This document shows positions 865 through 39,518 of a DNA stretch of 64,000 bases, piece after piece. Made by a program: the position numbers and the translations under genes. Below the pieces are notes generated by a model. The model did no database searches. It had not been told where the DNA came from and worked only from the letters and a program-made list of their open reading frames with translations. The stretch spans positions 4,960,001 to 5,024,000 of the forward strand of contig CP143430.1 in the NCBI GenBank assembly GCA_039636795.1, read 5' to 3'. Each line of letters starts with the position of its first letter. The stretch's first letter is position 1. Origin of the DNA: Micrococcaceae bacterium Sec5.1. Its GTDB lineage: Bacteria; Actinomycetota; Actinomycetes; Actinomycetales; Micrococcaceae.

Positions 865-6054
<5,190 letters not shown>

Positions 6055-6520
6055 AAAAACAAATCAAACAGACACAACCACACCCACCGGAAATAACGGT
6101 AAACACGGCTGCACAAAATTCGAAACCAGCTGAAAACCAGACCACCACACACGGGGGTGCGCAGAGGCCCGGCCATAATTTCAACCAATCAATAAAACAA
6201 TCGGCATCAACAAACTTGGCACACTATTGAGTTCTCAAACAACAGACACTAACCGGCACCACCGGACCCTTACAGGGCCACAGGATCGCTCCGGAGCAAC
6301 TTTTCAAACTTACCCGATCAACCGGAACCATGCAAATCAACGTTTCCGCGATTCCCGATCCGATGTTCGGCCCCACCCGGCACCGGCACGCCCAAAAGCG
6401 CACCATATTCCAGGCTGTTATCAAAGGGGTTGGCCCCCGCAGTTCCCAGCACCAGGCTGTCTCACTCGCGGCGACTCAGAAGACATTACACGCCCACCAG
6501 CCCTGGAACAAATCGCCCCG
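6055..6520 (-). promoter_or_regulatory. rRNA operon leader with boxA and 16S processing-stem arm
   Basis: The leader upstream of 16S carries GTTTGAGAACTCAATAGTG on the minus strand (6224-6242), which matches the antitermination region of actinobacterial rrn leaders and recurs in the spacer. Segment 6205-6220 pairs in three blocks (GCCAA, GTTTG, TTGATG) with spacer segment 4398-4422, giving the 16S processing stem. A possible promoter is TTGTTC, 15 bases, then TGTAAT (minus strand, 6511-6485), but the spacing is poor and I hold it only weakly. Confidence 0.55.
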
Positions 6521-6707
6521 AACACCACCCCAAAACCCCGCAAACACACGCCAAACAACACCATCCACGGCTCAGAAACAGCCCGGAAGCACCAAAACAA
6601 CTTCCGTGAGGCCCATCACACCAACCAAAGCCCCCGCCCCAGACAGCCGCGGCACCCAGCCCAGCAACCGCCGTCGAACATTCCGAAACCCCCAACCAAA
6701 AGCCGAC

Positions 6708-6870
6708 ACGACATGAGGGAAGAAACCCCCAAACACGTCGCGATGTGAGAGAAGGATGCTCAAAAACAACGACGATGTGAGAGAACAACCGAAGGGGGCG
6801 GGGGTCATCCGGCAGCGCGCGTCCAAGGGAGGAACGAGCGAGCGGGCAGAGGATGACCCCAGCCCCGCCC
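6708..6870. repeat. Composite 32-bp-period repeat element, copy 1
   Basis: Three copies of a GAnRTGAGrGA motif start at 6710, 6742 and 6774, exactly 32 bases apart. They are followed by an inverted repeat whose arms (about 6796-6810 and 6851-6870, GGGCG/GGGGTCATCC) enclose about 40 bases. The same arrangement occurs at 13392-13553. It lies between the rRNA promoter region and the rpsN terminator and has no convincing coding potential. Confidence 0.7.
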
Positions 6871-6919
6871 AAGCCACACGCCGCACCGGCACCACGGACA
6901 AGCACGCTTAAACGCAGAA

Positions 6920-6949
6920 AAGGCCGGCAACCATAACGGTTACCGGCCC
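6920..6949 (-). terminator. Rho-independent terminator of rpmB-rpmG-rpsN
   Basis: On the minus strand, AGGGCCGGTAACC and GGTTGCCGGCCT form a stem with a short loop followed by TTTT. It lies 17 bases past the rpsN stop codon. Confidence 0.85.
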
Positions 6950-6965
6950 TTTCAGAGCTTCGTGA

Positions 6966-7271
6966 TTACCAGGAAGACTTGGTGATGCCCGGGAGCTCAC
7001 CGCGGTGAGCCATGTCGCGGAAGCGAACACGGGAGATACCGAACTTCTGGAAGGTGCCGCGGGGACGGCCGTCGATCTGGTCGCGGTTACGCAGACGGAT
7101 CGGGGAGGCGTTGCGGGGCAGCTTCTGCAGGCCGAGGCGTGCAGCTTCGCGTGCTTCGTCAGTCGCGTTGGGGTCAACCAGGGTCTTCTTCAGTTCGAGA
7201 CGCTTGGCAGCGTAACGCTCAACAATGACCTTGCGCTGCTCGTTGCGAGCAATCTTGGACTTCTTTGCCAT
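6966..7271 (-). CDS. rpsN: 30S ribosomal protein S14, zinc-independent type
   Basis: This 101-residue protein begins [14 protein letters not shown] and contains the S14 signature region [22 protein letters not shown]. It has no cysteines, so it is the longer C-minus form that does not bind zinc; the zinc form is about 61 residues with two CxxC pairs. It lies 4 bases after rpmG in a three-gene operon of cysteine-poor ribosomal proteins. In many actinobacteria such operons are repressed by Zur as zinc-sparing paralogues. I could not identify a clear Zur box here, so that regulation is not claimed. Confidence 0.95.
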
Positions 7272-7275
7272 GTGT

Positions 7276-7443
7276 TTAGCGCTCCTCTCGGAATTCGACG
7301 TGCTGGCGGATCTTGGGGTCGTACTTCTTCAGGACCAGACGGTCAGGATCGTTACGACGGTTCTTGCGCGTTACGTAGGTGTAACCCGTGCCCGCAGTGG
7401 ACTTCAGCTTGATGATCGGACGTACGTCCTTGTCCTTTGCCAT
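7276..7443 (-). CDS. rpmG: 50S ribosomal protein L33, zinc-independent type
   Basis: The product is 55 residues, beginning [20 protein letters not shown] and ending QHVEFREER. It matches L33 but lacks both CxxC zinc-binding pairs. Its ATG overlaps the rpmB stop codon by one base (TAATG), which suggests translational coupling. It is part of the rpmB-rpmG-rpsN unit. Confidence 0.94.
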
Positions 7444-7679
7444 TAGAGCTTTACTCCTCGTGCCAGGATGTCGGCGACGACAGAGTCGATGCCGCGTACG
7501 TCGATTGTCTTGATGCCACGGGCTGACAGGGTCAGCGTGACGTTACGGCGCAGGGACGGAACCCAGTAGCGCTTCTTCTGAATGTTCGGGTCGAACCGAC
7601 GCTTGTTGCGGCGGTGCGAGTGCGAAATGCTGTGTCCAAAGCCCGGCTCGGCCCCGGTCACTTGGCAGTGTGCTGCCAT
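7443..7679 (-). CDS. rpmB: 50S ribosomal protein L28, zinc-independent type
   Basis: The product is 78 residues, starting [20 protein letters not shown] with the L28 hallmark [14 protein letters not shown]. It has a single cysteine, where the zinc-binding form has CxxC pairs. I chose the ATG at 7679 because GGAGGAG lies 5 bases upstream; the reading frame stays open further upstream without another good start. It is the first gene of the three-gene operon. An inverted repeat GTAACG/CGTTAC lies upstream at about 7702-7730 and could be regulatory. Confidence 0.94.
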
Positions 7680-8074
7680 GACTCTCCTCCAAAGATTGAA
7701 TGTAACGGTGTGCAGATGTTCCTGCGTTACCGTGCGACAGGCAGCGTTCGCATCCGATCCATACCATTTCGGTAGTTTCCGCATCAAGTACGGCGAAGAA
7801 GGTTGGGCCTCAGAGCCGGGCAGTGATAAACACTGGAACAGATCCTGGGATACCGGGCGAATACAGGAATGCACGCAACTTGAGCCCCTAACTACCGGCC
7901 ATCGGGATGTCAGTCAGACTGACCTCACCGCCAACCGGAGCAATTGCACACGATCCGCACTACCTAGCGCCTAACTATTCTACGGGCCAGGCCAAATTAA
8001 GACCAATCAGGAATCATAAGCCCTCACAAGCCCTTTCACAGCAGAACGAAAGGATCATTGGCGAGTCTTGGATC
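7680..8074. other. Divergent intergenic region between rpmB and the flavin electron-transfer operon
   Basis: About 395 bases without a convincing gene. It should hold the rpmB promoter on the minus strand and the promoter of the membrane reductase on the plus strand. An inverted repeat (GTAACG ... CGTTAC, spaced by about 16 bases) lies just upstream of the rpmB ribosome binding site. I see no recognisable promoter hexamers that I would defend. Confidence 0.4.
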
Positions 8075-9535
8075 ATGACATCGCTTCTCTCACGTGTTTC
8101 GGGTGCTGAACGGTCCTCGGCGCCGGGCCCACGGACGCCACCAGCCGCCGTCGAACCCTTTCGGGCGCAAGCCCGACGGCGGCTGGCCCGGGCCGACCTT
8201 TTGGGTTTCCTCGCGTGGGTGTCCCCAGTCGTCGCGGTCGCCTTGTGGCTCGCAGACGGCGGCGCAGGCGGATTCTCCTCCTTTGCCGGAACCGCGACAG
8301 GATTGGGAATCGTGGCCGGTTTGGTCGGCATGGACGTGGTCCTCCTCATGCTGCTCCTCGCGGCCCGGATCCCGTTGATCGACAACACAATCGGGCATGA
8401 CCGTGCTCTTGAGATCCACAAATCGCTGGGCAAGCCGGCGCTGTACCTGCTGCTGGCGCATGGGATCTTCATAGCCATTGGGTACGGCGTTGCCGAGGGT
8501 CTGGACCCGATCAGTGAGTCGGTCTCCCTGTGGGTCAACGTACCGGATATGTGGCTCGCGTTCGTCGCTATGGCGCTGTTCATAGCCGTTGTGGTCACCT
8601 CGTTGGTGGCTGTTCGACGCCGATTCCCTTACGAATTCTGGTACGCGATCCATCTCCTGACGTACGCAGCAGTGGCAACGGCCATTCCCCACCAGTTCAG
8701 TGTTGGCGGACTCTTTGCCGAAGGAACCTGGCAGCGCTGGTATTGGCTGGCAATCTGCATCGGAACGGGCGCGGCGCTCCTGTTCTTCAGGATTTACCAG
8801 CCACTCGCGGCGACAGCCCGGCATCAACTCACGGTCAGCCGCATAGTGCGCGTGGCACCGGACGTGTTCACCATCGAAATGACCGGACTGCGCCTCGAAT
8901 CGCTGGCAGGCAGCGGCGGGAGATTCTTCATCTGGAGGTTCCTGGCTCCGGGGTTCTGGTGGCAGCCGCACCCCTTCAGCCTGTCCGCGGAACCACTTCC
9001 GGCCACGGGCACTACAGCGGGCAAGCTCCGTATCACCGTCCGAAACCTGGGCGACGGATCGGCCCGGCTGGCCCGCCTTAGGCCCGGCACCAGGGTCGCT
9101 CTTGAGGGACCCTACGGGATGTTCAGCACCGCCGCGCGGTCCCGCAACAAAGTGGTGATGATCGGCGCCGGCATTGGCATCACTCCGCTGAGGTCGCTGC
9201 TGGAATCCACCCCATTCGAGCCCGGCAACGCAACTGTCTTGCTGCGCGGACACGACGAATCAGAGCTCTTCCTTGGTCAGGAAATCATGGCGCTTTGCCA
9301 AGCCCGCGGCGCAACCCTCTTCCACTTGACCGGCCCGCGCTCCGCACGCCCGAACGAATGGCTGCCCGAATCAGCCGTCCACGCCGGTTTCACGCTCCGC
9401 GACTATGTCCCGGATGTAGCCAACGCCGACGTGTACGTCTGCGGCCCGGCCGGCTGGGCCAGCCAAGTGGTCAAGGATGTACAGGCCGCCGGGCTACCTG
9501 CAGAACAACTCCACTACGAAAGGTTCGACTGGTGA
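8075..9535 (+). CDS. Ferric-reductase-like transmembrane flavoprotein (FAD/NAD(P)H oxidoreductase)
   Basis: This 486-residue protein has a membrane domain of about six helices (residues ~45-245) like the ferric reductase/NADPH oxidase family, with histidines in the helices (LLAHGIF, IHLLTYAAVATAIPHQF) suited to haem binding. The C-terminal half is a ferredoxin-reductase module: an FAD-binding HPFSLS motif and an NAD(P)-binding MIGAGIGITPLRSLL segment, ending in a CGPAGW motif. It should carry electrons from cytoplasmic NAD(P)H across the membrane. The next two genes encode an FMN-carrier domain and the transferase that attaches FMN, and the genes overlap, so the likely partner is the extracytoplasmic FMN protein. 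The start is chosen at the ATG at 8075; upstream sequence lacks a better one. Confidence 0.85.
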   Translation: MTSLLSRVSGAERSSAPGPRTPPAAVEPFRAQARRRLARADLLGFLAWVSPVVAVALWLADGGAGGFSSFAGTATGLGIVAGLVGMDVVLLMLLLAARIPLIDNTIGHDRALEIHKSLGKPALYLLLAHGIFIAIGYGVAEGLDPISESVSLWVNVPDMWLAFVAMALFIAVVVTSLVAVRRRFPYEFWYAIHLLTYAAVATAIPHQFSVGGLFAEGTWQRWYWLAICIGTGAALLFFRIYQPLAATARHQLTVSRIVRVAPDVFTIEMTGLRLESLAGSGGRFFIWRFLAPGFWWQPHPFSLSAEPLPATGTTAGKLRITVRNLGDGSARLARLRPGTRVALEGPYGMFSTAARSRNKVVMIGAGIGITPLRSLLESTPFEPGNATVLLRGHDESELFLGQEIMALCQARGATLFHLTGPRSARPNEWLPESAVHAGFTLRDYVPDVANADVYVCGPAGWASQVVKDVQAAGLPAEQLHYERFDW

Positions 9536-9996
9536 GAATCCGGGCAGCAATGGCAACGGCCCTGGCCTCCGCGGGCATCCTGCTCGCGGGCTGGCAGTCT
9601 GGGGCGCATGTTGCCGAGACAGGCACATCTACCACAACGAGCCTGAGCAGCAGCATGTCCGCCGGCGGTTCGGCTGCGAACGGCAGCACCGGTACCGGCA
9701 GCAGCGCGGAAAGCACGACGGCGGCAACGTACGACGGCGCGTCAGTCGGCACCCGCTTCGGCACAGTCCAGGTGCAGGTGACCATCCAGAATGGCAAGAT
9801 CACCGAGGTCACACCCCTGCAACTCACCGATGCGGAACGGAAATCCGCACAGATCAGTAGCCGGGCAGCACCGGTCTTGCGATCCGAGGTCCTGCATGCC
9901 CAATCAGCCAACGTACAAACCGTCAGTGGCGCGACGGTCACAAGTGAGGCCTATCTCACCTCCCTTCAGGCGGCCCTCGATGCAGCCAACTTTTAG
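9532..9996 (+). CDS. Secreted/membrane-anchored FMN-binding domain protein
   Basis: This 154-residue protein starts at a GTG that overlaps the previous stop codon by 4 bases. Residues 4-21 form a hydrophobic signal or anchor, followed by a long Ser/Thr/Gly-rich linker (about 30-66) and an FMN-binding domain like NqrC/RnfG. The SGAT motif at 132-135 is the expected site where ApbE links FMN covalently to the threonine (T135). The family is known for extracytoplasmic electron transfer. The downstream apbE gene overlaps it by 17 bases, which strongly supports this role. The final electron acceptor cannot be read from the sequence. Confidence 0.85.
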   Translation: MRIRAAMATALASAGILLAGWQSGAHVAETGTSTTTSLSSSMSAGGSAANGSTGTGSSAESTTAATYDGASVGTRFGTVQVQVTIQNGKITEVTPLQLTDAERKSAQISSRAAPVLRSEVLHAQSANVQTVSGATVTSEAYLTSLQAALDAANF

Positions 9997-10801
9997 CGGC
10001 GAACAGCTCCGTGCCCGTACTTTCCGCAGCATGGGCACTGTGATGAGCCTGACCGTGGCGAGCGGCACGTCCGCCCAAACCGCCGCCGAGGAACTTGAGT
10101 CCGCCGTCGACGTCGTAGGAGAGATATTTATGCAGCTCGACCTGACGTTCAGCCTTTACCGCGAAGGATCTGAGGCGAGCCGGCTGGCCCGGGGCGAACT
10201 GACGTTGGCGTATGCCTCGGAGTTGATGCAGGAACTGTATGCAGCGGCCTCGGAATGGCGGGTGGATACCGAAGGTGCGTTCACGGCTGAGCGACCGGAC
10301 GGCGCGTTGGATCTTTCCGGAATCGTCAAAGCCCACGCCATGCGCGAAGCTGCGCTGTCCTTAGGTGCCCTCGGCCTGCACGATTGGTGCCTCAACGCTG
10401 GCGGGGACGTGCTGGTGAGCGGATCACCGGAGCCCGCGGACTCTGGCTTTGAAGATCCCAGTCCGTGGCAGGCCGGGATCGTTGATCCGTTCGATCGCCA
10501 GAAGCTGCTCAGTACATACCGCCTCAGCGCCTCGGCCGAAAGCGGAATGACGGCCCTGGCAACGTCAGGCTCGACTGAACGGGGAGAACACATTTGGACC
10601 GTCGGGGCCGGACGGTCGGAGTTCCTTCAGGTTTCCGTCGCGGCGCAGGACATTCTTACGGCCGACGTCCTGGCAACGGCAATCGTCGCCGGCGGAATAC
10701 AGACCTTGGATCATGCCGTGGAGAAATGGGGCGTCGAAGTGCTCGCGGTTGGCAGGACGGGAACGCTGCTCGCCACGCCGGGTTTCCGTTATGCGGCCTG
10801 A
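9980..10801 (+). CDS. apbE: FAD:protein FMN transferase (ApbE family)
   Basis: The 273-residue product has the ApbE pattern: RSMGTVMSLTV near the start, a LDLSGIVKAHAMREA segment and NAGGDVLVSG in the flavin/metal-binding core. The enzyme transfers FMN from FAD to a threonine in an SGAT motif of a partner protein, and such a protein is encoded immediately upstream. No signal peptide is visible, so export would need another explanation, or the reaction happens before export. The ATG at 9980 is within the end of the upstream gene, so the two are probably translationally coupled. Confidence 0.88.
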   Translation: MQPTFSGEQLRARTFRSMGTVMSLTVASGTSAQTAAEELESAVDVVGEIFMQLDLTFSLYREGSEASRLARGELTLAYASELMQELYAAASEWRVDTEGAFTAERPDGALDLSGIVKAHAMREAALSLGALGLHDWCLNAGGDVLVSGSPEPADSGFEDPSPWQAGIVDPFDRQKLLSTYRLSASAESGMTALATSGSTERGEHIWTVGAGRSEFLQVSVAAQDILTADVLATAIVAGGIQTLDHAVEKWGVEVLAVGRTGTLLATPGFRYAA

Positions 10802-10826
10802 GGCCGGTCCATCTAAACCGGGCCTT

Positions 10827-11591
10827 CTAGACCGGGCGGATCAGGGCCGGATATTTCGGGCTAAGCCCATCGCCCGAGGACGTACCCCGCACACGGCGCA
10901 CCACCCACGGACCGGCGAATTCCCGGACCCATCGTGCGTTTGCCCTGATGGCTTCGGAACGGTTCAGCGTAGGAAGCGGAGCGAGCTCGGGGACTTCGAG
11001 CACATGCTCATGCTCGAGGACGTCCAGCACGCGCTTGGCCATATTAACGTGGCCAGCCGTCGACATGTGCATCCTGTCCTGCGCCCACATCCGGACGTCG
11101 TAGTACTCGTCGAACCGCCAGTAATCCACCAGCAGGGCACCGTGGTTCTCCGCGATTTCGCGCAGCAGCTCGTTGTAGATCGCGGTCCGTCCACGCATCG
11201 TGCTAAAAACCTTGGAACCGCGGGCGTCAAAGCCCGTGAAGAGTACGACAGTGGCACCCGTCGCGCTTAACTTGGCGATGCCGGCGTCGTAATCCTCCAA
11301 AAGGGAGTCAATATCGATCTTCGGCCGCAGGATGTCGTTCGCGCCGGCGTACATCGTCACCAATGTGGGCTTCAGTGCGACCGCCGCGTCCACCTGTTCT
11401 GCAATGATTTGGCGGAGCTTCCTGCCGCGGATGGCGAGGTTGGCATAGCCGAAGTCCTCGTTGCTGTGGGCCAACTGCCGGGCAACGACGTCGGCCCACC
11501 CCCGGACGCCGTTGGGTCGCGTTGGGTCGTCGTCGCCAACGCCCTCAGTGAACGAATCCCCCAGAGCAACATAACGGGCAGAAAAATCCAT
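10827..11591 (-). CDS. SGNH/GDSL hydrolase, paralogue 1
   Basis: The 254-residue protein has the SGNH block I motif ALGDSFTEGVGD near residue 10, a block II glycine in NLAIRG, block III GANDI (about 83-87) and block V DRMHMS with the catalytic Asp/His pair. No signal peptide is present, so it is cytoplasmic. Members are esterases or lipases with varied substrates. It is a clear paralogue of the gene at 12493-13329, which shares the GDSFTEGVGD and WADRVA/WADVVA regions. It ends 25 bases from the convergent apbE gene. Confidence 0.85.
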   Translation of the reverse strand: MDFSARYVALGDSFTEGVGDDDPTRPNGVRGWADVVARQLAHSNEDFGYANLAIRGRKLRQIIAEQVDAAVALKPTLVTMYAGANDILRPKIDIDSLLEDYDAGIAKLSATGATVVLFTGFDARGSKVFSTMRGRTAIYNELLREIAENHGALLVDYWRFDEYYDVRMWAQDRMHMSTAGHVNMAKRVLDVLEHEHVLEVPELAPLPTLNRSEAIRANARWVREFAGPWVVRRVRGTSSGDGLSPKYPALIRPV

Positions 11592-11640
11592 GCCGTCAGT
11601 CTGCCATTAGCCAACCGCTACCTACAAAGCGTGGGCAAGG

Positions 11641-12120
11641 CTACGATTCGCGCAGGATCCAGTGGTTATTGTCCAGCCGGGAGACGATTTTCTCGCCGAT
11701 GCGCGCGAGGTCCGCGACGTCGTCGGGCGAGAGTGAATCGAGCATCAGCGCTCGCACGGACTCAACGTGACCGGGAGCGAGGGCCACAATGGTGGACATG
11801 CCGGCCTCGGTCAGGTGGGCAACGGTGACCCGCGCGTCGCCCGGGTGCGCCTGGCGTTCCACCCAGCCGCGCTTCTGGAGTTTGGTGACCACGTGCGACA
11901 GCCGCGACAGCGACGCGCTGGTCCGGGCCGCGAGCTCGCTCATGGGCAGGTACCGGCCCTCGGTTTCCGAGAGCATCGCCAACACGTTGTAGTCGAACAG
12001 CGACAATTTCCCGGCAGACTGAAGCTGCGTATCCAACGCCGACGGAAGCAAGGTATTGATGCTCAGGAGGGCCAACCAGGCACGGCGTTCGTCGGCATTA
12101 AGCCAGCGGGGTTCAGTCAT
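11641..12120 (-). CDS. MarR-family transcriptional regulator
   Basis: The product is 159 residues with a winged-helix core: LSLFDYNVLAMLSETEGRYLPMSELAARTSASLSRLSHVVTKLQKRGWVERQAHPGDARVTVAHLTEAG follows the MarR pattern, including the wing motif DARVTVAHLT. It acts as a homodimeric DNA-binding repressor or activator; the ligand is unknown. It is divergent from the YciI-like gene (68 bases apart), which is a plausible target. It could also control the downstream SGNH hydrolase on the same strand. Confidence 0.88.
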   Translation of the reverse strand: MTEPRWLNADERRAWLALLSINTLLPSALDTQLQSAGKLSLFDYNVLAMLSETEGRYLPMSELAARTSASLSRLSHVVTKLQKRGWVERQAHPGDARVTVAHLTEAGMSTIVALAPGHVESVRALMLDSLSPDDVADLARIGEKIVSRLDNNHWILRES

Positions 12121-12188
12121 GGATCCATCTTAGGAGAATTAGCCGGTTGGCCCGGCCTTGCTGCAGCCGCAAACGGTAGGCTGACGGA

Positions 12189-12476
12189 ATGTTCGTTGTT
12201 GCCCTGACCTACAAAGTTCCCGATGAGATCGCCGATTTCCACCGGCCAGCCCACATGGCCTGGCTTAAGGACGCGTTCGACGCCGGCGTATTCCTTGCGT
12301 CGGGACGTCGCGTCCCAGCCACGGGCGGCGTGTTGCTGTCCAAAGCAGACCGGGCAACACTGGATGACTCGCTGGCCAAAGACCCCTTCTTCAGCAACGG
12401 CGTGGCCGAGTTCGAGATCATCGAATTCACCGCGACCAGTGTGGCCGAGGGCTACGAGAACCTGCTCGAGAACTGA
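12189..12476 (+). CDS. YciI-like protein
   Basis: A 95-residue protein beginning MFVVALTYKVPDEIADFHRPAHMAWLKDAFDAGVFLASGRR, which is the YciI ferredoxin-like fold with the conserved His in RPAHMAWL. The family includes dehydrochlorinases and many proteins of unknown function. It is transcribed divergently from the marR gene. The specific role is not known. Confidence 0.85.
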   Translation: MFVVALTYKVPDEIADFHRPAHMAWLKDAFDAGVFLASGRRVPATGGVLLSKADRATLDDSLAKDPFFSNGVAEFEIIEFTATSVAEGYENLLEN

Positions 12477-12492
12477 GGCTTGCCGGGTAGCT

Positions 12493-13329
12493 TCACTGCG
12501 TAGCCTGCTGGTTTTCGACCAGTTTCTTCAGTCCACCCTTCCGCGGGACCTTCACGGGCTGGGGCCACCGCGGATTCAGGGAGTCCCCCAATGTGACGCC
12601 GCGGAGTTTACGTCCAAAAAGCGGCAGCACCCAGTCGTTCACCCAGCGCCGCTGCCTGCGTTCCCATTCGCGCATGGTCATTCTTTGGGGCGGGTCCCAT
12701 TGCTTCGGAGAAATCTTGTGCGGGACATTTAGGTGGTCCAGGACCTGGGCGGCGAGGTATTTGTGGCCAGCTTTGGACATGTGAAGCCGGTCAGGGGCCC
12801 ACATCCGTGAATCTTTGTAGGCGTCGAAGCACCAGTAATCCACCAGGATCGCCCCATATTTTGCAGCAACATCACGGACCTTTTGGTTGTACATGGTGTT
12901 GCGCTTCTTGAATGGTTCCAGGACGGCTGAGACCTTCACGTCAAAGCCGGTAAAAAGGACCAGGGTTGCTCCCGTTTGGCTCAGGCGCGCGACAAGCAAT
13001 TCGTAGTCGTTGAGGAGTGCGTCCATGTCCGTGCCAAAGTCCAGGATGTCATTGCCGCCGGCATACAACGTGATGAGTGTTGGTTCCATGGCCAGAGCGG
13101 GCTCGAGCTGTTCATCGATGATGTGCCGGAGCCTCTTGCTGCGCACTGCGAGATTCGCATACTCCCAGCCCGGCTGCGCTTTGGCCAATTTCTCGGCGAC
13201 CCGGTCTGCCCACCCGCGAACCCCATTGGGCAGCACCTTGCTTGGGTCCCCCACGCCCTCGGTGAAGGAATCCCCAAGGGCGACGTACCGCCTTCGTCCG
13301 CTGTGCCCAGCCGCGTAAACATCCCGCAT
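12493..13329 (-). CDS. SGNH/GDSL hydrolase, paralogue 2
   Basis: This 278-residue protein has the same motifs as the hydrolase at 10827-11591: ALGDSFTEGVGD near residue 17, GGNDI in block III and DRLHMS in block V. It has an extra C-terminal stretch rich in basic and aromatic residues (WERRQRRWVNDWVLPLFGRK). No secretion signal is seen. The two paralogues flank the marR-yciI pair, suggesting a local duplication followed by divergence. The start is uncertain, because upstream sequence has no strong ribosome binding site. Confidence 0.82.
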   Translation of the reverse strand: MRDVYAAGHSGRRRYVALGDSFTEGVGDPSKVLPNGVRGWADRVAEKLAKAQPGWEYANLAVRSKRLRHIIDEQLEPALAMEPTLITLYAGGNDILDFGTDMDALLNDYELLVARLSQTGATLVLFTGFDVKVSAVLEPFKKRNTMYNQKVRDVAAKYGAILVDYWCFDAYKDSRMWAPDRLHMSKAGHKYLAAQVLDHLNVPHKISPKQWDPPQRMTMREWERRQRRWVNDWVLPLFGRKLRGVTLGDSLNPRWPQPVKVPRKGGLKKLVENQQATQ

Positions 13330-13640
13330 CCAGCCGACGCTACCTACCCCCGGTTACACCACAGCCAACCCCAAGTGAACAGGACGAACGGGACATGAGA
13401 GAACATCCCCCATAAACCCGGGGGAAGTGAAAGAAGATCCCCAAAAAACCGGGGGGAAGTGAGAGAGCATCGGAAGGGCGACCTGCCCGCAAGGCCGCAG
13501 CGGCAGTTTTGTGTAGGAGCGCATCGCAGCCCATCGTGGCGCGGAGGTCGCCCAGCGACCGGAACGGCACCTATGGGTTGTGTCTAAGCGACGGCAAAAC
13601 TACCGCTGCGGCCGGACTCTGCCGCGGCGCCAAAACACGA
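13330..13640. repeat. Composite 32-bp-period repeat element, copy 2 (13392-13553)
   Basis: Three copies of GAnRTGAgAGA start at 13392, 13424 and 13456, exactly 32 bases apart, with C-rich/G-rich half-palindromes (CCCCC...GGGGG) between them. They are followed by a segment bounded by GGGCGACCT (13476-13484) and AGGTCGCCC (13545-13553). The order and spacing match the element at 6708-6870. There is no gene in this stretch. Confidence 0.72.
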
Positions 13641-14696
13641 TTAGCCCTCTGCCTTGCCCCGTCGCCAGTAACCCATGAATGCAACCTGCTTCCGATCAAT
13701 TCCAACGTCCCGCACCAAGTACCGCCGCATTTCCTTGATGACGAACGCTTCCCCGGCGATCCAGGCGTAGAACGGCAGCGCACCGGCAGGCAGAGTGGGG
13801 TTCTTGGTGGCTTCGATGGCTGCGGCGTCCATGCGTTGCGGGGTCTCCCAGAGGATGTCCTGATCCACGTTGACGTCTTCGGGCTCGGGTCCGGCGGCGG
13901 TGCCAGCGCCCTTGATGCCTACCCATCCCGGCACGGGAACGGCCTTGGCCACCGCTTCCTTGAGAAGTTCGCCATGGGGACGTGAGCGTCCAATGGCCGC
14001 TCCACGTGCCAGCCAGGTGATTTCGATGTCGGCTTCGGTGGAGATGTCCTGGAAGTCGCCGGCTTCGGGTACTTCGAGGAAGGCGTGGCCGGTCATGTCG
14101 GCGGGCAGGCTTTCCAAGATTGCGCTGATGGCAGGGACGGCGGTTTCGTCGCCGGCGAGCAGGACTCTCTGGGCCAGGCCGGGGCGCCATTCGATGCCGC
14201 CGTAGGCTCCGGCTGTGGTGCACTGCGCCGCACGGTTGTTGGGGCCGATGATGGTGATGGCGTCGCCGGGCTTGGCTTCTTTCGCCCAGTTGGCTGCGGG
14301 CCCGCCGCGGCCTGCATCGTCGAAGTGCATCACAAAGTCGATGTCGATCTCGGGGTAGACGGCGTCGAGTCGCTCAGCCCTGACGGTGTAAGTGCGCATG
14401 TCACCGCGGACGGACGGGTCCATGGCCAACCATTCCTGGTACCAGCCGGCTTCTTCCATCTTGAACGGAGGCAGCGGAATGACGTTGCCGGCCACGTCGC
14501 ATGAAGGAATCATCAGCTTCACGCGCAGGTCCAAAGTGTCCCCTGCAACGCCGAAGCCGCGCAGTGAGTAGCCTCCAAACGTGATCCGGCGGAAGTTTGG
14601 GCTCAGGTCCTGCACGGCCGAGACGGTGACGTCGAAGGCGAGGGTCATCGGTTCCACGGCGGCGCTCGCTTGGGTCCGTGTTGGTTGGGCACTCAT
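13641..14696 (-). CDS. Siderophore-interacting protein (FAD-dependent ferric-siderophore reductase)
   Basis: The 351-residue protein matches the SIP family. The N-terminal barrel contains the FAD-binding region MRTYTVRAERLD, with the RTYTVR motif near residue 120. The C-terminal part has an NAD(P)-binding region (RVLLAGDETAVPAISAILESLP). It reduces imported ferric siderophores in the cytoplasm to release iron. Its ATG overlaps the stop of the ATPase gene by 4 bases, so it is the last gene of the siderophore import operon. An insertion near residues 275-300 makes it longer than the usual 260-300 residues. Confidence 0.92.
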   Translation of the reverse strand: MSAQPTRTQASAAVEPMTLAFDVTVSAVQDLSPNFRRITFGGYSLRGFGVAGDTLDLRVKLMIPSCDVAGNVIPLPPFKMEEAGWYQEWLAMDPSVRGDMRTYTVRAERLDAVYPEIDIDFVMHFDDAGRGGPAANWAKEAKPGDAITIIGPNNRAAQCTTAGAYGGIEWRPGLAQRVLLAGDETAVPAISAILESLPADMTGHAFLEVPEAGDFQDISTEADIEITWLARGAAIGRSRPHGELLKEAVAKAVPVPGWVGIKGAGTAAGPEPEDVNVDQDILWETPQRMDAAAIEATKNPTLPAGALPFYAWIAGEAFVIKEMRRYLVRDVGIDRKQVAFMGYWRRGKAEG

Positions 14697-15517
14697 GAGG
14701 CGATCTCCAGTTCGTTGGTTGAAACGGGCTGTGCATGGTGGCGTCCGATGGGGACAATGAGCGGTGTTCCCGAGATGGGGTCGGGAACCACACGGGATTC
14801 GAGGCCAAAGACGTCGAAGACCAGTTGCTCGGTGACCACGACGGGTGCGGGTCCTTCGGCCACAATGCATCCGCCCTTCATGGCGATGACGTGGTCGGCG
14901 TAGCGCGCGGCGAGGTTGAGGTCGTGGAGCACGATCGCCACGGTGGTTCCGCGGCTGCGGTTGAGGTCCGTGATCAGGTCCAGGACTTCCACTTGGTGTG
15001 CCAAGTCCAAATACGTGGTGGGCTCGTCCAGCAGCAGGACTTCGGTTTCCTGCGCGAGGGCCATGGCGATCCAGACGCGCTGGCGCTGTCCGCCGGACAG
15101 TTCGTCGACGCTCCGCTCTGCGAGTTCCAGCGTTGCGGTAGCTTGGAGGGCGCGCTGCACCGCGGCGTCGTCGGAATCGCTCCAGCTGCGGAAGAACCCC
15201 TGGTGCGGATACCGGCCCCGTCCCACGAGGTCGCGCACGGTGATGCCGTCGGGAGCCGTGGGGTGCTGCGGCAGCAAACCCAAGGTCCGGGCGAGTTCGC
15301 GGGCGGGACGGGTGTGAATGTCCTTGCCGTCGAGCGTCACGGCACCACTGGCGGGCTTGAGCAGCCGCGACAGTCCTCGAAGCAGCGTGGACTTACCGCA
15401 GGCATTTGCGCCCACGATCATGGTGACTTTGCCCTCGGGGATCTCGGTGGTGAGACCCTCAACCACCTTGCACTGCTCATATTGAAGTGTCAGGTCCTTG
15501 GCATTAAGGACGGCCAT
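14693..15517 (-). CDS. Ferric-siderophore ABC transporter, ATP-binding protein
   Basis: The 274-residue protein has the Walker A motif GANACGKST near residue 34, the ABC signature LSGGQRQRVWIAMAL, and the Walker B motif VLLLDEPTTYLD, the FecE/FepC/FhuC-type pattern. It powers the import complex with the two permeases encoded just upstream. It starts one base after the upstream permease stop and overlaps the reductase gene by 4 bases. Confidence 0.95.
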   Translation of the reverse strand: MAVLNAKDLTLQYEQCKVVEGLTTEIPEGKVTMIVGANACGKSTLLRGLSRLLKPASGAVTLDGKDIHTRPARELARTLGLLPQHPTAPDGITVRDLVGRGRYPHQGFFRSWSDSDDAAVQRALQATATLELAERSVDELSGGQRQRVWIAMALAQETEVLLLDEPTTYLDLAHQVEVLDLITDLNRSRGTTVAIVLHDLNLAARYADHVIAMKGGCIVAEGPAPVVVTEQLVFDVFGLESRVVPDPISGTPLIVPIGRHHAQPVSTNELEIAS

Positions 15518-23265: not shown

Positions 23266-24611
23266 TTCTGTGTCCCGTCAGTGCTTGTTGCGTCGGTGCT
23301 GGTTGCGTTCGCGGCGGTACCGGACACATGCTCTGCATGCTCGGTCGTTCCTCCCTTAGACGCATGCTGCCGCATGTCTCCGGGATCGCCGCTCGTGCCG
23401 TTCCCGGCTTCCGAACCCGCGTCAAACCGTTTAGCAAGATCGACGAGGTCGCCGGTTGGATTGACCCCGGCACCATCTTCATTTTCATGGTCAGGGAGGG
23501 CGGCTGACGGCGCTGGATCGTCGAGGCCGCTGGCTGGATTGACCCCGGCACCATCTTCATTTTCATGGTCAGCGATGGCTGCTGACGGCGCTGGATCGTG
23601 GACTCCGGGTTCGACGCCGGTGAGGTCGGCACCCAAGGTAGACGACGCCGATGCCGCCCCGGGAGTGGCATCGGGCCTTCCGGAGCCGGCAGCATCGTCC
23701 ACAGGACGAGTGCTGTCCGGCGAAGGGGCGGGGGCGGCATCGGCGTCGTCCTCCCCAACCCCCACGGCCGCGTCGGCATCGTCGTCCTCGGTTGAGGTGT
23801 CTGATGAATCCACGTCCAGCAGCGGCTCTGTTCCTGATTCGTCGGCGGCTACCGCTATGAGGGCCTCTATTTGGGCTGGGATGTCGCCGATGTTTTCGAA
23901 GGGGAGGGCCAGCGGGAGCGCGTTGCTGATGGTGTACGTGTCGTCCAAGGGGGTGGGGAGGAGGAGTTGGCGGGCCAGGAGTTTGGTGATGGTGCGGGTG
24001 ACGACGTCGGAGTCGCGGAGTGCATCCTGTTGGCCTGCGGGGGTGTAATTGGCGACGAGTTCCGAGATCTCTTCGCGGGTGATGGTGGGGTCCGTCTGGG
24101 CTGTGACGTGACGGTCCAGGAGGAGGCGCAGGCGGAGGAGGACGATGGTTTCCACGCGGCTCAGTGCACGCTGCTGCCGGAGGATGCTTGATCGTGAGCT
24201 GGCGCCGATGATCTCCGGGTCGACGGGGCGGAGGACGGCGATCTTGCGGTCGTGATCCAGCTGGAGAGTGAGGAACAGTTCGGAGAGGCGGCTGCGGAGG
24301 ATGAGTTGGTTGTCCAGGAGTGTGGTCCAGAGCTTCTCGTCGCGGCCGCCGTCGATGTAGGGGCCTTTCAGCAGTTTGACCAGCGCGTGACGGACCTTCA
24401 TCGGCAGCACGCCTGTGTCGCCCGGGAAGAGGGCGGCACCGTCAACGAACGTGTCCCGCGGGGTGACCCGGAACGGGTCACCGTGGGTGGCGTGAGTCGC
24501 CGCTTCAGTCGGGACTTCAGCCTCCTCAACGGCTCCGTGCTCGTCGGTGGCATGCTCCTCGGTGACGTGCCCCTCCTCGGTGACGTCCGTCGTCGTGATT
24601 TCCTCAGTCAT
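23262..24611 (-). CDS. jetB: JetB/MksE-type subunit (DUF4194) with repetitive C-terminal tail
   Basis: The 449-residue protein has a DUF4194/JetB core of about 190 residues ([20 protein letters not shown] through [14 protein letters not shown]). JetB is the winged-helix KITE-type subunit that joins JetA to the JetC heads. It has an acidic N-terminal tail of about 45 residues and a low-complexity Asp/Ala/Ser/Pro-rich C-terminal tail of about 190 residues, far longer than a minimal family member. The tail holds a 26-residue tandem repeat. The ATG at 24611 is preferred over 24623 because of the GAGG 8 bases upstream; it overlaps the jetA stop. Confidence 0.87.
23461..23600. repeat. 78-bp in-frame tandem repeat inside jetB
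   Basis: The segment beginning TTGACCCCGGCACCATCTTC recurs 78 bases later (23461 and 23539), which equals 26 codons. It encodes the repeated unit with DPAPSAA and [12 protein letters not shown]. The second copy carries few substitutions, which suggests a recent duplication. Confidence 0.88.
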
Positions 24612-39446: not shown

Positions 39447-39518
39447 CTGTCGCCTTACGGCAACAAATGCTAAAGTCGTCGTACGGCGACATTTTCGAAA
39501 GTTGCCGTACGGCGACAG
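39447..39518. promoter_or_regulatory. HipB operator cluster 1
   Basis: CTGTCGCCTTACGGCAAC (39447-39464) and GTTGCCGTACGGCGACAG (39501-39518) are inverted copies that match at 17 of 18 positions. A third site, GTCGTACGGCGAC, lies between them (39478-39490). The half sites GTCGCC/GGCGAC fit the palindromic style of HipB operators. They lie just upstream of hipB. Confidence 0.75.

Follow-up and report, generated by a model that had tools for sequence, protein, structure and literature searches.

Repeats that share one feature or another with those reported here are known from several bacterial systems. The units of MIRUs are 40-100 bp long and many mycobacterial MIRUs overlap stop codons; rut sites are known for the lack of a strict consensus and of a period. 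REPs are single palindromes with a stem of 8-9 bp (CGTC) or 5-13 bp (GTAG), and neither Arthrobacter nor the Actinobacteria are named in the main text of the paper describing them (PMC3733652). The REP analysis table of RepRanger has a row for Arthrobacter livingstonensis, whose counts may or may not include the units described below (PMC12306157). Uptake words of the Neisseriaceae occur in thousands per genome (PMC3630211), and Rho defines mRNA 3' ends in M. tuberculosis (PMC5379054). No description of the arrays that are the subject of this study was found in the open-licence literature of PubMed Central.

The window analysed here is a stretch of 64,000 nucleotides corresponding to positions 4,960,001-5,024,000 of the 5.43-Mb single-contig genome of Micrococcaceae bacterium Sec5.1, and it contains two arrays of three units each. 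The cores of array A lie on the plus strand at 6710..6725 (GACATGAGGGAAGAAA), 6742..6757 and 6774..6789, the last unit being the closest to the end of rpsN, and the gene-sense strand of this array is the minus strand. The three GAnRTGAGrGA motifs that an initial annotation had placed at 6710, 6742 and 6774, exactly 32 nt apart, were therefore confirmed, and the second three-unit set that it had seen 6.7 kb away was found as array B, also on the plus strand and with the same 32-nt steps (cores at 13392..13407, 13424..13439 and 13456..13471). They are not due to chance, because a two-unit pattern allowing up to three mismatches matched four times in the window, whereas 100 shuffles gave 0.13 matches on average and never more than 2.

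Each array is faced by the 3' end of a gene of the minus strand. The rpsN gene (ribosomal protein S14, 6966..7271) ends 176 nt before array A, which is followed in the gene-sense direction by the 16S rRNA gene (4533..6052, minus strand). The gene of a siderophore-interacting protein (13641..14870), whose product was 93% identical to that of Arthrobacter sp. NtRootA1, the nearest named relative in the search, ends 169 nt before array B, and the next gene downstream encodes a GDSL-type hydrolase (12493..13329, minus strand). Both arrays are located beyond an inverted repeat, and array A is additionally beyond a hairpin followed by a T run (6918..6952, minus strand), which was read from the sequence, is seen also in orthologous loci and is the presumed intrinsic terminator of rpsN. 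In their placement, both arrays of the window are less typical of the family than others.

The initial annotation had regarded the array and the adjoining inverted repeat as one composite element with the same layout at both loci. Inverted repeats do follow both arrays, but they have neither sequence nor geometry in common: the one at array A (6795..6866) has arms of 16 nt (6795-6810 and 6851-6866) that are 94% complementary and 40 nt apart, whereas the unrelated one at array B (13493..13613) has arms of 19 nt (13493-13511 and 13595-13613) that are 95% complementary and 83 nt apart. The first belongs to a dispersed hairpin family with the apical sequence GCTCNTTCNTCNCTTNGACGC on the minus strand, which was found at 18 places of the genome when up to two mismatches were allowed (2 with the control); among the 12 loci of this family that were inspected, most had long arms and several had no array motif nearby. 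Moreover, the related genome G618 carries a hairpin of the array-A kind at the array-B locus. Because of these differences, the conserved object is the 32-nt array only, not the composite, and the inverted repeats are separate modules outside the array family.

An Rfam search of the window and of positions 6600-7000 returned only the rRNAs and one meaningless weak match. Two other tandem repeats were observed in the window, at 23438-23599 (78-bp period, 2.1 copies) and at 39449-39517 (26-bp period, 2.7 copies). NZ_AP024648.1, a 1.35-Mb record of Arthrobacter sp. StoSoilB13 that is labelled as a plasmid, matched 98% of window positions 6000-14900 with 90.5% identity, including the start of the 16S gene and rpsN, and is probably a chromosomal piece. 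Within the same genome as the window, a second stretch (1821558-1821879) was 76% identical to window positions 6604-6959, with a hairpin and array-like units of its own; it is probably located upstream of another rRNA operon.

When the whole genome was searched, the three-unit pattern gave 52 matches and the two-unit (adjacent-unit) pattern gave 107, of which 56 were forward and 51 reverse, and the reversed control pattern gave none in either search. The strict two-unit pattern found no array between 0 and 0.518 Mb or between 1.82 and 3.14 Mb, though arrays were frequent elsewhere. As many further copies with the same period were found in this and in related genomes, a coincidence of two loci is not supported. 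A looser detector recognised 65 arrays of 2-7 units in the stretches of this genome that were examined. The unit, read on the array strand, is 32 nt long and consists of a core of 13-16 nt followed by a 16-nt spacer, and the arrays both start and end with a core. In this genome the core reads GAnGTGAGAGA followed by RSRWY. Single strict motifs outside arrays accounted for only 4 of 69 motif clusters in the examined stretches, all of them within called genes.

The period was very constant. Among 318 intervals between neighbouring cores, taken from five sets, 287 measured 32 nt, 17 measured 33 nt (seven of these in G276), 11 measured 31 nt, two 30 nt and one 35 nt, that is, 317 of the 318 were in the range of 30-33 nt, and no other interval between 13 and 50 nt was present; with the looser detector, 153 of 163 intervals of the Sec5.1 genome were of 32 nt and one was of 34 nt. 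Neighbouring units (168 pairs) differed by 295 substitutions and 19 length changes, compared with 522 substitutions and 158 length changes in 41 intergenic control pieces aligned between the Sec5.1 genome and G618. Length changes are several times rarer in the arrays than in the intergenic control, in a count that large changes breaking an array would escape. The 32-nt period thus looks selected, in agreement with what the initial annotation had suggested for the spacing.

A tight period with few length changes would suit sites of double-stranded DNA, in which a putative protein would bind to each GTGAG-NNN-GCGTY core and the 32-bp pitch, corresponding to three helical turns, would align neighbours on one face for cooperation, so that the filament could act behind transcription units as a polar roadblock, an insulator or a nucleoid/topology site. 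The bipartite core, the genome-wide dialects described below and the mostly unshared spacers are what would be expected of sites that track a changing binding protein, AA is favoured at unit positions 23-24 in this genome and in its relatives, and arrays located behind intrinsic terminators would remain sensible. However, G276 retains arrays whose period is 33 nt and the excess of C over G reaches into the spacers, and we consider this explanation rather unlikely.

The spacers of neighbouring units within an array were identical at 12.7 of 16 positions (60 pairs), compared with 7.6 of 16 between loci. Tandem duplication in situ therefore appears to be how arrays grow, and the likeness of the core across loci seems to be kept by something besides much recent copying. 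These values are also consistent with functionless minisatellites, in which an easily slipping or duplicating motif is tolerated behind transcription units and kept by local tandem duplication, as in mycobacterial MIRUs; the unit number varies between species at one locus, and many relatives have no array at the orthologous ctaA end. Nevertheless, slippage accounts neither for the use of a single strand nor for the exact offset from the stop codon, it leaves unexplained both a motif that is alike across loci while the spacers differ and the rarity of length changes relative to the intergenic control, and the units at ppc were kept in most genomes examined in spite of their changed spelling. 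We thus regard this origin as improbable.

Recent proliferation by copying, another proposal of the initial annotation, did not emerge clearly: near-identical spacers shared by loci more than 5 kb apart formed 20 pairs, whereas 200 simulations of the null gave 7.5 on average and up to 25, so that the sharing is raised but not beyond what the null produced. A mobile or proliferating repeat of the REP/RAYT kind, inserting at gene ends, would agree with this raised sharing, with the dispersion of the 107 adjacent-unit matches over the genome, with the frequency of inverted neighbouring arrays and with the mostly downstream location of REPs (PMC3733652). On the other hand, the units are not palindromic, the sharing does not leave the null range, and the units at ppc recur in most genomes examined, so that such an element seems highly improbable to us. 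The best perfect stem averaged 3.55 bp in 60 units of the Sec5.1 genome (3.12 bp in shuffles) and 3.0 bp in 25 units of relatives (2.74 bp in shuffles); stems of 5 bp were present in 12 of these 85 units and stems of 6 bp or longer in none. A structured RNA within the unit, also proposed initially, received no support, as there was no pair covariation inside the unit and no stem of at least 7 bp in any of the 85 units.

Neighbouring arrays of opposite direction separated by no more than 400 bp were head-to-head in gene sense in 15 cases and arranged the other way in 3 (counted by eye). Such divergent pairs looked at first like transposon ends, a possibility that was rejected since the 30 array genes scanned were unrelated. 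A 1.28-kb IS3-type element, encoding HTH_Tnp_1 and rve proteins, was located in or beside arrays at five loci of this genome (761128-762405, 1079469-1080746, 1483262-1484539, 3145548-3146825 and 5041547-5042824), and a similar-looking end was seen in the ppc array of G023. A target preference of this element for arrays is only suggested, all loci having been chosen for their arrays.

The position of the arrays relative to genes was determined with gene calls from a purpose-written codon-usage script, some of whose start and end labels are wrong; with these calls, the neighbour on the 3' side of 60 arrays of this genome, recognised by a stricter detector, was a gene end in 45 cases and a gene start in 15 (47 and 18 for the 65 arrays of the looser detector), compared with 31 gene ends and 29 gene starts on the 5' side. 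Of the 60 arrays, 24 had a stop codon between -5 and +15 nt from their last unit, compared with 2 on the 5' side. In 14 of the 60 the stop was at offset -2, so that the last two bases (RA) of a TRA stop codon serve as the first two gene-sense bases of the core (TRA-CG-Y-TCTCTCAC). The genomes G194, G276 and G020 together contributed 31 arrays, of which 28 were outside called genes and faced a gene end in 21 cases and a gene start in 7; a stop codon was nearby in 12 of the 31 arrays, and two of the 31 had one on the 5' side (by eye). A further set of 55 arrays, from other genomes and with other dialects, gave 41 gene ends, 13 gene starts and one array without neighbour, and the stop codon was near in 16 of the 55 and on the 5' side in one. 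In these Arthrobacter soil bacteria, arrays thus sit just behind the ends of many unrelated genes, and most of them point the same way with respect to the gene.

The neighbour of the 39 genes followed by an array was convergent in 24 cases and co-directional in 15. Arrays were absent from closely spaced co-directional pairs: all 15 co-directional gaps with an array were of at least 147 nt, whereas 64 of 98 control gaps were shorter than that, a difference that is partly trivial because an array needs room. No common theme was found among the 30 array genes scanned (of 38), which include regulators of the LacI, GntR, TetR and LuxR types, PEP carboxylase, NAD synthase, CtaA, UbiA and an amino-acid permease; three of the 30 had no Pfam family. 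As these are ordinary genes, a special link to the rRNA operon is not supported. Terminator-like matches were present behind 26 of the 39 array genes and 29 of 90 controls, and are thus not depleted; some of these matches were inside arrays, and separate terminator-like hairpins precede or follow some arrays.

The gene-sense strand of the arrays had a peculiar composition. In nine genomes the C/G ratio was 1.53-3.26 in the arrays and 1.22-2.43 in the spacers alone, compared with 0.55-1.01 in the next 100 nt, the bias of the arrays being given partly by the motif itself. Behind the 39 array genes the ratio was 1.84 over nt 1-32 and had dropped to 0.83 by nt 225-256, whereas it stayed at 0.89-1.22 behind 62 control genes; the medians for the first 96 nt were 1.5 and 1.04, respectively (p 2.5e-7). 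In each of the nine sets the array RNA folded less strongly, per nt, than the sequence flanking it. Relative to dinucleotide shuffles, arrays were slightly more folded (mean z of -0.49 to -1.3 in eight of the nine sets), and array A folded better than all 200 of its shuffles. In composition, the arrays resemble what would be expected of a Rho loading region.

Considering position, strand asymmetry and composition together, we propose, with a probability of about 0.4, that the array is a strand-specific 3'-end (termination or insulation) element of the gene it faces and a predicted loading platform for Rho. Read in the direction of the gene, a transcription unit would carry behind its last gene between 2 and 9 units of RACGC-NNN-CTCAC (or of a variant spelling), each with its 16-nt spacer, and the units would often begin within the stop codon itself (TRA-CG...). 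The array would be transcribed as a C-rich, G-poor RNA of about 50-270 nt, typically 80 nt, free of ribosomes, and this RNA might serve as a regular platform on which Rho, perhaps together with a sequence-specific partner, would load and thereby end or insulate the transcription unit. An effect on transcription, RNA as the form that is recognised, and Rho as the reader are all inferences from these features. RNA is preferred as the recognised form mainly because the composition is like that of a Rho loading region, and the role of Rho is doubted mainly because of the strict core and pitch: we know of no need of Rho for a 13-nt motif or for a 32-nt period, and Rho alone leaves the strict spelling and the period unexplained. 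Several observations stand against the proposed 3'-end element, namely the gene start called as 3' neighbour in the 15 of 60 arrays mentioned above, the terminator-like matches that were not depleted at array genes, the slightly stronger folding relative to shuffles, the presence of units near the stop codon of ctaA in only 4 of 30 relatives (by eye), and the location of several arrays, including both of the window, beyond a hairpin or an intrinsic terminator, where little array RNA is therefore expected.

The same RNA could instead act in the finished mRNA, if a protein or a small RNA bound in the 3'-UTR to the repeated RACGC-NNN-CTCAC and set stability or decay. The specificity for the gene-sense strand, the frequent start at the stop codon and a C-rich RNA that is less folded than the flank would fit this role, but arrays past intrinsic terminators would seldom be transcribed and, to our knowledge, most single-strand binders do not need a strict pitch; we judge an action of this kind very unlikely.

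Comparison of orthologous loci indicated that places may be kept while the spelling changes. Thirty close genomes were compared at rpsN-rrn, where two loci had no anchor and were left unread and two were cut by contig ends; at least two units were seen in 16 of the 30 (by eye), with up to about 9 units and with different spacers. Among the loci listed for the comparison of the Sec5.1 genome with G618, 19 showed units behind the same gene in both genomes, with replaced spacers and often with different unit numbers, and at locus 761089 G618 had no units (all by eye). The ppc 3' ends of 30 genomes contained at least two units in 22, a single hairpin form in 5 and none in 3 (by eye), and a stricter script applied to the whole locus recognised arrays in 18 of the 30. 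In the five genomes with the hairpin form (G591, G605, G029, G035 and G026), the array is replaced by one long hairpin formed by a unit and its inverse (TTGCYCYATCACTTNTGG...), which is near-perfect in four of them and looser in G035 (by eye), and which is perhaps a minimal form of the element. Among the ctaA ends of 30 relatives, only those of G618, G598, G036 and G002 had units close to the stop codon (within about 50 nt); units lay farther away at some of the other loci and were absent from many, even in close relatives (by eye). Whether the location is conserved thus depends on the gene, the units being kept in most genomes at ppc and mostly not at ctaA. The siderophore-interacting gene was compared at 70 of 80 loci, in a plain count without a null model, and these had at least two units (loose criterion) in 21, at least three in 7 and fewer than two in 49; in A. 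pascens, Pseudarthrobacter sp. NamB4 and A. bambusae the units were located 12-20 nt behind the gene, and the laboratory strain Paenarthrobacter aurescens TC1 had five units there.

The spelling of the core at ppc was clade-specific, being TCTCTCAC in one clade and, in others, TCCCTCAC, TTCCTCAC or GTCCTCAC, TCGCTCAC, and CCGCTCAC or GCGCTCAC. Where comparable, it was the spelling found at other loci of the same genome: GCGC in G608 and GGAA in G002, and also GAGA in G020 and GGGA in G036, whose other loci were found by a pattern permitting only purines at two variable positions. The dialect counts are biased for the Sec5.1 genome, G194, G276 and G020, whose loci, like those of most genomes, were fetched as pattern matches, whereas the choice of G618, of the loci at ppc and ctaA, and of the NNN positions in G605, G608 and G675 did not depend on dialect. 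The core spelling thus forms clade-specific dialects, and the spacers are particular to each locus, being shared across loci with no clear excess; the sequence turned over while its place was kept at ppc and at several further loci. An extension of the 3'-end proposal, which we offer tentatively and would hold to be somewhat doubtful, is that, in Arthrobacter and relatives, the phased, stop-anchored arrays constitute a sequence-specific, factor-dependent end or insulation system whose core co-evolves clade by clade with a putative trans-acting reader, each clade using its own dialect at the same genes.

Related arrays were frequent within the genus. A relaxed first pattern matched 99 of 150 genomes and a second pattern, for other dialects, matched 111, the union being 115 (hand-counted), although genomes of one genus are related and the counts are not independent. 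With the first pattern the reversed control matched 18 of the 150 genomes, with up to 8 matches (by eye), and 3 genomes in the family search; with the second pattern it gave no match in the genus and family searches, nor did it in the search with the purine-only pattern. At least one repeat matched by the first pattern in the genus search (in G675, GTGATTGAGCCTGTCG...) does not look like the array family. Among 245 genomes of 32 genera of the family, the second pattern matched 20 genomes of 3 genera, one of these genera by a single doubtful match, and the first pattern matched 17 genomes of 4 genera, several single matches looking like coding repeats. Five genomes of genus g45 matched the second pattern, which makes this a second genus with related arrays. 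In the phylum, the strict two-unit pattern matched 1 of 296 genomes, but since this pattern also misses the Sec5.1 genome, it tests genomes outside the family only weakly.

Should a role in ending transcription hold, a large and well-sequenced group of soil bacteria would possess a 3'-end signal encoded by repeats, and its reader could then be traced through the dialects by genome comparison. Should the arrays have no function, they would still offer an unusual natural example of a period, and at some genes a location, outlasting the spelling of the motif and the spacers, which makes selection on spacing measurable. The arrays may also serve in strain typing as fast-varying markers.

When compared with known systems, the arrays share with REPs and BIMEs the presence of tens to hundreds of copies, an intergenic and mostly downstream location between convergent or co-directional genes, species-specific families and inverted dimers (PMC3733652). 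The arrays are indeed extragenic and mainly downstream of coding regions, and their units contain GTGAG and often CGTC. Yet there is no stem for these words to tag, since the palindromic stem of about 5-13 bp is lacking (12 of 85 units reach 5 bp and none 6 bp, with no covariation), and the units are arranged head-to-tail with a fixed 32-nt pitch that is often phased to the stop codon. The arrays resemble MIRU/VNTR loci, which are intergenic actinobacterial tandem repeats with a unit number varying between strains, and the copy number does vary at orthologous intergenic loci (rpsN-rrn, the Sec5.1 genome against G618, and ppc). However, a MIRU is one repeat family, whereas the arrays keep a short core, have spacers that differ per locus (7.6 of 16 positions identical between loci, so that no single homologous repeat is present at all loci) and follow whole-genome dialects. 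As in CRISPR arrays, a conserved repeat alternates with differing spacers at a fixed pitch, but here the repeat is of 16 nt, the spacers within an array are near copies of each other (12.7 of 16 positions identical in adjacent spacers) instead of unique, and the sites are many gene ends. The uptake sequence dialects of the Neisseriaceae are likewise short words with clade-specific spellings and sometimes inverted pairs at terminators (PMC3630211); very many single copies would be expected of such words, and in the stretches of this genome that were examined single strict motifs made up 4 of 69 clusters. The units are not intrinsic terminators either, having no GC-rich hairpin with a T run in each element. 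Like rut sites, the arrays are C-rich, G-poor and untranslated, with a typical length of 80 nt (three units) and a range of about 50-270 nt, and they differ from them in their strict core and 32-nt period. By these membership tests the arrays are not a REP, MIRU, CRISPR or uptake-word family; they form a real family, undescribed as far as the open-licence literature shows, that would work most like a strand-specific transcription-end signal.
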